Shown here in pieces: positions 10,215-10,575 of a stretch of DNA of 64,000 nt. Source of the DNA: an uncultured Desulfobulbaceae bacterium (GTDB taxonomy: Bacteria; Desulfobacterota; Desulfobulbia; Desulfobulbales; CALZHT01); the NCBI GenBank assembly GCA_945787445.1, contig CALZHT010000001.1:1-64000 (forward strand), written 5' to 3'. Below the pieces are notes generated by a model that saw only the letters and a list, made by a program, of their open reading frames with translations, had not been told where the DNA came from and did not search any database. Numbering within the stretch: position 1 is the first letter of the stretch; every line of letters starts with the position of its first letter. The position numbers and the translations under genes are program-made.

Positions 10215-10419
10215 TGGCGCGCCCGGAGGGATTGTCTGCTCACTATGTTGCGCGGACGTTAATATGTAATCTACTTTGATAATGTTATCGGAAAAAGCTC
10301 CTTGGAGTCTCTGGCGCGCCCGGAGGGATTGTTTGCTGCGCAAACGTTAAATCCTGGCAGCCTTCGATTATGTTCACGGAAAAATTACTTTGGAATTATT
10401 GGCGCGCCCGGAGGGATTG
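10215..10419 (-). repeat. tandem array of tRNA-Arg 3'-end repeats (three copies)
   Basis: Downstream of tRNA-Arg on the transcribed strand, the last 19 nt of the tRNA (AATCCCTCCGGGCGCGCCA, including CCA) recur exactly at 10401–10419, 10312–10330 and 10215–10233. With the tRNA itself the spacings are 97, 89 and 98 bp. The rest of each unit is also related (conserved hairpin next to the 19-mer, and a CGGAAAAA-like segment). The hairpin arms read GTCTGC/GCGGAC in two units and GTTTGC/GCAAAC in the middle one. This is a paired change suggesting selection on RNA structure. The layout resembles the rtT repeats after E. coli tyrT. Confidence 0.85.
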
Positions 10420-10498
10420 TCTGCTCACTGCGTTGCGCGGACGTGATGACCACCTTTATCTTTGGCACCATCTACGGCAAAAAGTACATGGTATTTCA

Positions 10499-10575
10499 TG
10501 GCGCGCCCGGAGGGATTCGAACCCCCGACCTGCGGATTCGAAGTCCGACGCTCTATCCAGCTGAGCTACGGGCGC
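10499..10575 (-). tRNA. tRNA-Arg (anticodon UCG)
   Basis: The minus strand folds as a complete cloverleaf. The acceptor stem is GCGCCCG/CGGGCGC, the D arm GCTC/GAGC, and the anticodon loop CTTCGAA (anticodon TCG, reads CGA). The T arm is GGGGG/CCCTC around TTCGAAT. There is one U·C mismatch at the top of the anticodon stem. The CCA end is encoded (10499–10501). It is followed on the same strand by three partial copies of its 3' end. Confidence 0.95.

Follow-up and report, generated by a model that had tools for sequence, protein, structure and literature searches.

The window, a 64-kb stretch of DNA from a 4.46-Mb genome (G000 in our locus labels), carries on its minus strand a gene for tRNA-Arg(UCG) with an encoded CCA end, followed by an array of three repeat units (Table 1). 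Unit 1 begins at the base directly after the tRNA CCA and lies on the same strand. The units have a common layout: after CCA comes a weakly related spacer of 54 to 56 nt that opens with a T run, then a hairpin, and then a copy of the tRNA tail (nucleotides [nt] 58 to 76), which matches the 3′ end of the upstream tRNA at 19/19 positions in all three units. The 3′ arm of the hairpin ends in GAC (units 1 and 3) or AAC (unit 2), and A58 of the tail comes immediately after. The initial annotation had described three recurrences of the 19-nt tRNA end in units of 97, 89, and 98 bp. The copies are indeed exact, but the first starts at 10400 and not at 10401, and the unit lengths, two of which were wrong by one base, had to be corrected to those in Table 1. 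At up to one mismatch, the four exact copies, including the one in the tRNA, are the only such places in the whole genome, and a reversed control gave 0 matches. This repetition is not due to chance, as four exact copies lie inside 300 bp and none lies elsewhere.

Table 1. Features of the tRNA-Arg(UCG) array and its neighborhood
Feature	Position	Strand	Description
tRNA-Arg, anticodon UCG, CCA encoded	10499..10575	minus	ARAGORN; Rfam tRNA, 69.7 bits
nt 58-76 of tRNA-Arg(UCG)	10499-10517	minus	exact AATCCCTCCGGGCGCGCCA
Unit 1, 99 bp	10400..10498	minus	spacer 10443-10498; hairpin GTCCGCGCAACGCAGTGAGCAGAC 10419-10442; tail copy (exact AATCCCTCCGGGCGCGCCA) 10400-10418
Unit 2, 88 bp	10312..10399	minus	spacer 10346-10399; hairpin GTTTGCGCAGCAAAC 10331-10345; tail copy (exact AATCCCTCCGGGCGCGCCA) 10312-10330
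Unit 3, 97 bp	10215..10311	minus	spacer 10258-10311; hairpin GTCCGCGCAACATAGTGAGCAGAC 10234-10257; tail copy (exact AATCCCTCCGGGCGCGCCA) 10215-10233
Probable degenerate remnant of a tRNA terminator, start of unit 3 (GAGACTCCAAGGAGCTTTTTCCG)	10286..10311	minus	inferred by eye from intact terminators at related tRNA-Arg loci
Five flanking genes			ABC-F, rhodanese, class-III aminotransferase, phosphoribosyltransferase, HDOD

CTTTTT or ATTTTT stretches close to where units 1 and 2 begin resemble, by eye, the probable terminator remnant of unit 3. From the tRNA CCA to the last unit, the minus strand gave no match to an intrinsic terminator, so read-through of the array would be permitted. Among the phage records listed, only the tRNA-Arg itself matched. 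Apart from tRNA, no Rfam family was matched in the window, and the covariance model of RtT RNA (RF00391) had no match in the window at an E value of ≤5.

To judge the likeness of the units, we compared their spacers against shuffled sequences. Spacers 2 and 3 are clearly related (P = 0.002) and spacers 1 and 2 weakly so (P = 0.03), while no relatedness was detectable between spacers 1 and 3 (P = 0.21); the earlier view that the units are related over their full length thus holds for one pair, weakly for another, and fails for the third. The hairpin had been reported to change from GTCTGC/GCGGAC to GTTTGC/GCAAAC, which is right as sequence. On the tRNA strand, units 1 and 3 read GTCCGC/GCAGAC, with one C·A mismatch (U·G on the opposite strand), and unit 2 reads GTTTGC/GCAAAC, fully paired. 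Between units 1 and 3 and unit 2, one pair is therefore altered on both sides (C-G to U-A), and the C·A mismatch becomes U-A. The paired changes stood up in a wider set, and the hairpin arms co-vary: for 12 distinct hairpins from the window genome and its order, with relatedness among the hairpins ignored, own arms pair at 62.5/72 versus 48/72 with swapped arms, and 0 of 20,000 shuffles reached the observed value.

We also considered a closed tRNA-like minihelix in each unit, formed by a spacer complementary to the tail. It was rejected as a general rule: spacer-tail complementarity was not significant in the window units, reached P values of 0.03 to 0.05 in the E. coli Tyr units, was borderline in C17 (P = 0.02), and was significant in the gammaproteobacterial locus L163.

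Among the scanned tRNA genes of the window genome, units occur behind tRNA-Arg(UCG) and tRNA-Arg(ACG) only. The single unit of tRNA-Arg(ACG) is placed between the tRNA and its terminator and ends in that tRNA's own, different 19-mer (AATCCTGCC..CCA), not in the UCG tail. The same genome also contains the hairpin outside tRNA loci. The unit 1 hairpin plus AATC (28 nt, exact except for one degenerate position) was found at five dispersed sites without tRNA tails, and the unit 3 hairpin plus AATC was likewise matched in the dispersed-site search. These five sites are part of a dispersed repeat, to which about 40 places in the genome match. Five sister copies of this repeat (L280-283 and L286) are uninterrupted and read ...GGGAATCTCCGTACG or near it (GGGG|AATCTCC or close). 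Copies L273-276, on the other hand, contain a 96-bp insert that ends in GCAGAC (GGGG|AATTTGAACA...GAGCAGAC|AATCTC), and L277 has a similar insert of 98 bp. In L285 there are two tandem inserts of 97 and 91 bp, the second of which ends in GCTTGCGCAGCAAAC, i.e., GCAGCAAAC|AATCTCC, close to window unit 2. The insert lengths (91 to 98 bp) match those of the tRNA units (88 to 99 bp), and the likeness between the spacers of the two groups is weak (best P = 0.004). Thus, a hairpin-ended module with the length of the tRNA units appears to have been placed before AATC at a non-tRNA site and to have been stacked there too. The insert edges have only AA or AAT in common; a duplication of 19 nt or more is thus not intrinsic to insertion and would need a second step.

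The dispersed family itself (L273-L302, about 40 places; GAAGCTCCCCGCGGC...GCCGCGGGGAATCTCCGTACGTAAGG...) is large and REP/MITE-like, with some copies interrupted by the hairpin module, and it was not found in the two genomes from the same bacterial family. A short version of the unit 1 hairpin, preceded by ∼25 nt that are likewise shared (ATAAAGGTGGTCA.C.CGTCCGCGCA), is present at ∼1478-1535 of L042 (G000:C55), just upstream of a gene with a tsf-like start, probably in an rpsB-tsf gap.

We searched 258 genomes of the order, taken to be Desulfobulbales since its contigs carry Desulfobulbaceae names in GTDB, for the repeat pattern and read the matches against their flanking sequence. A tRNA-Arg followed by ∼80 nt, a hairpin, and its own tail was found in G005 (two units), G009, G033, G041, G049, and G050, besides the window genome, and the same layout was detected through tail copies in G057. 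The layout behind tRNA-Arg is therefore present in eight Desulfobulbales genomes, the window genome included; pattern matches in three others (G013, G140, and G142) lacked it. Of the 78 examined tRNA-Arg loci in the order that have 120 bp or more of downstream sequence, 9 carry a real tail copy (11 were counted, and the weak matches in L020 and L237 were discarded as spurious). The hairpin stems differ across the order yet pair, and the loop GTTTCGTT is common to several. The initial annotation had named absence of the repeat from close relatives as a finding that would count against its interpretation. This applies only in part: two genomes of the same family gave no match, yet the repeat is present in genomes from several further families of the order.

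Two loci show further arrangements. In L240 (G057:C98), the unit of tRNA-Arg(ACG) has two successive hairpins before the tail, GTCCGGT-TGTTTCGTT-ACCGGAC and then ATCAGCA-GTTTTGTA-TGCTGAT. In L148 (G004:C3:268800-271500), a second copy of tRNA-Arg(UCG) nt 31 to 77 lies 1.7 kb after the tRNA; the two copies are probably the attachment sites of a small element, which carries what looks by eye like a toxin-antitoxin gene pair.

To look beyond the order, we scanned 84,980 species genomes with GACAATCCNNNCGGGCGNRCCA, which yielded 53 stretches. Those located behind a same-strand tRNA-Arg were from Desulfobulbaceae, Sphingomonadales (Erythrobacter, Novosphingobium, Altererythrobacter, and Aurantiacibacter), and gammaproteobacteria, while matches in Streptomyces and Frankia had no tRNA and look like chance matches in coding sequence. 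A ∼70-nt insert from one gammaproteobacterium had homologues in 21/61 genomes. In gammaproteobacteria, it lies behind eight kinds of tRNA with this layout: tRNA-Ser(GGA, TGA, and GCT), Gln(CTG), Arg(CCG), Glu(TTC), Met(CAT), and Pro(CGG). The insert sits at 57|58, usually preceded by the 5′ half of the T arm (GGGTTCG|insert|AATCCC), and is followed by the upstream tRNA's own tail, usually with 19/19 identity. Across lineages, nearly all tails match the tRNA of their own unit, begin at nt 58, and have a stem directly before them. Terminator and tail were duplicated together in L131, L146, and G005. No Rfam families were found for the alpha- and gammaproteobacterial units.

Searching the other tRNAs of 14 unit-bearing genomes with the GACAATCC pattern gave mostly chance matches but yielded tRNA-Ser(GGA) in G267 and tRNA-Arg(ACG) in G263. 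On two gammaproteobacterial contigs, the insert is located inside a tRNA gene, after nt 57, and the tRNA body is otherwise complete (L160, tRNA-Arg[ACG]; L169, tRNA-Ser[GGA]). The interrupted body in L169 is nearly identical to an intact gene just downstream (with the alignment shifted by two bases). As both loci are at contig ends of metagenome assemblies, these interrupted tRNAs could be assembly joins.

Some gammaproteobacterial loci (L163, L165, L166, and L177) have an inverted copy of the tRNA tail after the terminator (e.g., TGGCTGGGGGAGAGGG against CCCTCTCCCCCAGCCA), so that terminator and tRNA end form one long palindrome, which is significant in L163 (P = 0.003 to 0.007). In L270 (G261:C212:7700-10400), a ∼2.2-kb segment encoding a protein of 379 amino acids that looks Fic-like by eye is flanked on both sides by a tRNA-Arg 3′ end, a tRNA-linked unit, and a terminator; no integrase was seen among its open reading frames.

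Repeats of this kind, called tRNA-linked repeats (TLRs), have been known in Escherichia coli since 1978 and were reportedly treated by Rudd in 1999. In E. coli, there are 22 TLRs at ten loci, and their final 18 to 19 bp are identical to the 3′ end of the tRNA or 5S RNA that precedes them; they have no known function apart from CsrA and Hfq binding by the 5S-linked ones, and the 5S repeat has been proposed as an RNase E recognition site (PMC8144298). In the open-license full-text literature, we found no papers on such repeats outside Enterobacterales. When we checked the E. coli sequences, the repeats at tyrT/tyrV, argV-argQ, and lysV all began at nt 58, with a stem directly before. E. coli loci scored 133 to 137 bits against RF00391. 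The likeness to tyrT and its rtT RNA that was suggested initially is thereby strengthened, as in both cases the tail starts at exactly nt 58 and the stem closes right before it. The contrast with E. coli as a case of a "different tRNA" has to be dropped, since E. coli repeats also occur behind tRNA-Arg(ACG) and tRNA-Lys, with the same nt-58 boundary as in the Tyr repeats. With E. coli TLRs behind tRNA-Tyr, 5S, tRNA-Arg(ACG), and tRNA-Lys, the convergence proposed in the initial annotation is not the best reading and is less likely than one widespread phenomenon that spans Desulfobulbales, Sphingomonadales, gammaproteobacteria, and E. coli. The insert of the E. coli 5S repeat rrB is homologous to the gammaproteobacterial tRNA insert (P ≤ 0.0005), with identical positions at 61/81 in L160, 60/79 in L167, and 54/81 in L169, and it occupies a G|AA site within a partial copy of 5S. 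In every feature of the TLR definition that can be read from sequence, the window array agrees with three tRNA-linked repeats.

On balance, we lean toward an explanation in which hairpin-ended modules were inserted at G|AAY and the array consists of TLRs whose duplicated tails are probably read through and kept via tRNA-like trimming. Each unit would comprise a copy of the tRNA 3′ end (nt 58 to 76), a degenerate terminator region, and a short module ending in a hairpin (G-T-C ... G-A-C), with the module at exactly tRNA position 57|58, in the sequence G|AATC. The G|AAY targets would lie in three places: in tRNA genes at the T-loop, in 5S at its 3′ end, and in the dispersed repeat of the window genome. 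Such insertion would explain why the boundary is fixed, why the layout recurs behind different tRNAs and at 5S, and why certain tRNA bodies and copies of the dispersed repeat are interrupted. At tRNA genes, the intact gene would be retained, with a tail behind the module that was duplicated along with the terminator region, possibly by insertion into one of two tandem tRNA copies and subsequent loss of its body or possibly by target duplication. Transcription from the tRNA promoter would probably run on through the array, and trimming of each tail copy in the manner of a tRNA 3′ end may be the reason why the copies have been kept. The tails stay nearly perfect while the spacers drift. This points to selection, which in the simplest case would act on tRNA-like 3′ processing of a transcript that runs through the array; alternatively, tail conservation could result from separate insertions of different modules. 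No transposase or recombinase tied to the modules was found, although the search was not systematic. More tentatively, and with less confidence than we place in the explanation above, the TLRs of several proteobacterial lineages and Desulfobacterota may be footprints of undescribed noncoding, hairpin-ended insertion elements of ∼70 to 100 bp, which would target G|AAY (the tRNA T-loop at 57|58, the 5S 3′ end, and dispersed repeats) and form arrays by reinserting at the same site.

A rather unlikely alternative is that the units are genes for small regulatory RNAs released from the tRNA transcript, for example, CsrA sponges, with the tail serving only as a 3′ processing signal. The E. coli RNAs RrA, RrB, and RrF are transcribed and processed and bind CsrA and Hfq (PMC8144298), gammaproteobacterial inserts have GGA in hairpin loops (e.g., GCACAGGATGTGC; by eye), and the combination of conserved tails and diverged spacers would also fit. 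The three window hairpins, however, have no GGA in their loops, which disfavors a CsrA sponge here, and the folding of whole window units does not surpass that of shuffled sequences (z = 0.54, −1.15, and 0.48). The lack of matches in the two same-family genomes and the low frequency among tRNA-Arg loci of the order further argue against such genes, and predicted CsrA binding was not found for the E. coli TLRs in tRNA operons (PMC8144298). We regard it as decidedly unlikely that simple tandem duplication produced the array, with slippage copying the tRNA 3′ end and terminator, unequal crossing-over giving three copies, and the hairpin arising within the duplicate. Joint duplication of terminator and tail and the relatedness of units 2 and 3 are in line with this scenario, which nevertheless leaves unexplained both the nt-58 boundary in all lineages and the same hairpin-ended segment that interrupts a dispersed repeat with uninterrupted sisters.

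The 3′ ends of tRNA genes are classic attachment sites, and the tail copies might be stacked, decayed remnants of integrative elements that used the tRNA gene, as the flanks of the Fic-like gene segment in G261 could suggest. Nevertheless, the units have almost the same length in different families, the hairpin module is also found inside a non-tRNA repeat, and what lies at the upstream edge is a conserved hairpin with co-varying arms instead of random element sequence. Moreover, none of the five flanking genes searched is an integrase or recombinase; we therefore consider this origin very improbable. Barely credible, finally, is a decoy role, in which the tail copies would bind and titrate tRNA-processing enzymes or tRNA-end-binding proteins. 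In each tail, the CCA and the 3′ strands of both the T-stem and the acceptor stem are indeed kept exactly, but the 5′ strands of both stems are absent from the window units, so that no tRNA-like helix would form on its own; the spacers do not compensate by significant complementarity to the tails, and the copies are few relative to dozens of tRNA genes.

For TLRs, we found no explained origin and no accepted function except CsrA binding by the 5S-linked ones. If module insertion at G|AAY is the right explanation, they gain a concrete and testable origin from the dispersed repeats and tRNA bodies that are interrupted. That Desulfobacterota and several classes of proteobacteria have the layout and its boundary at nt 58 in common suggests that TLRs are a general feature, and rtT-like RNAs seem worth seeking widely behind tRNA genes.

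Compared with known systems, the array most resembles the E. coli TLRs, including rtT/RttR behind tyrT-tyrV (RF00391): in both, tandem units lie directly behind a tRNA, carry an exact 19-nt copy of its 3′ end (nt 58 to 76), and have a stem that closes right before nt 58. The E. coli units differ in being longer (∼178 bp in tyrT) and in having a multihairpin insert, preceded in tyrT by the 5′ half of the T arm (GGTTCG), whereas the window units have a single hairpin of 15 to 24 nt, no TTCG, and no RF00391 match. In RrA, RrB, and RrF (PMC8144298), too, a terminator and a structured insert at a G|AA site precede the copied 3′ end of a stable RNA. They differ in deriving from 5S rather than tRNA and in their GGA loops and CsrA binding, and by eye, without alignment, we noticed no sequence likeness between their insert and the window hairpin. 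REP and BIME sequences are short, dispersed, intergenic hairpin repeats present in many copies. One dispersed family of the window genome carries the same hairpin and is in this respect REP-like; unlike REP/BIME, the window module is recognized by the AATC that follows it and occurs in tandem behind tRNAs.
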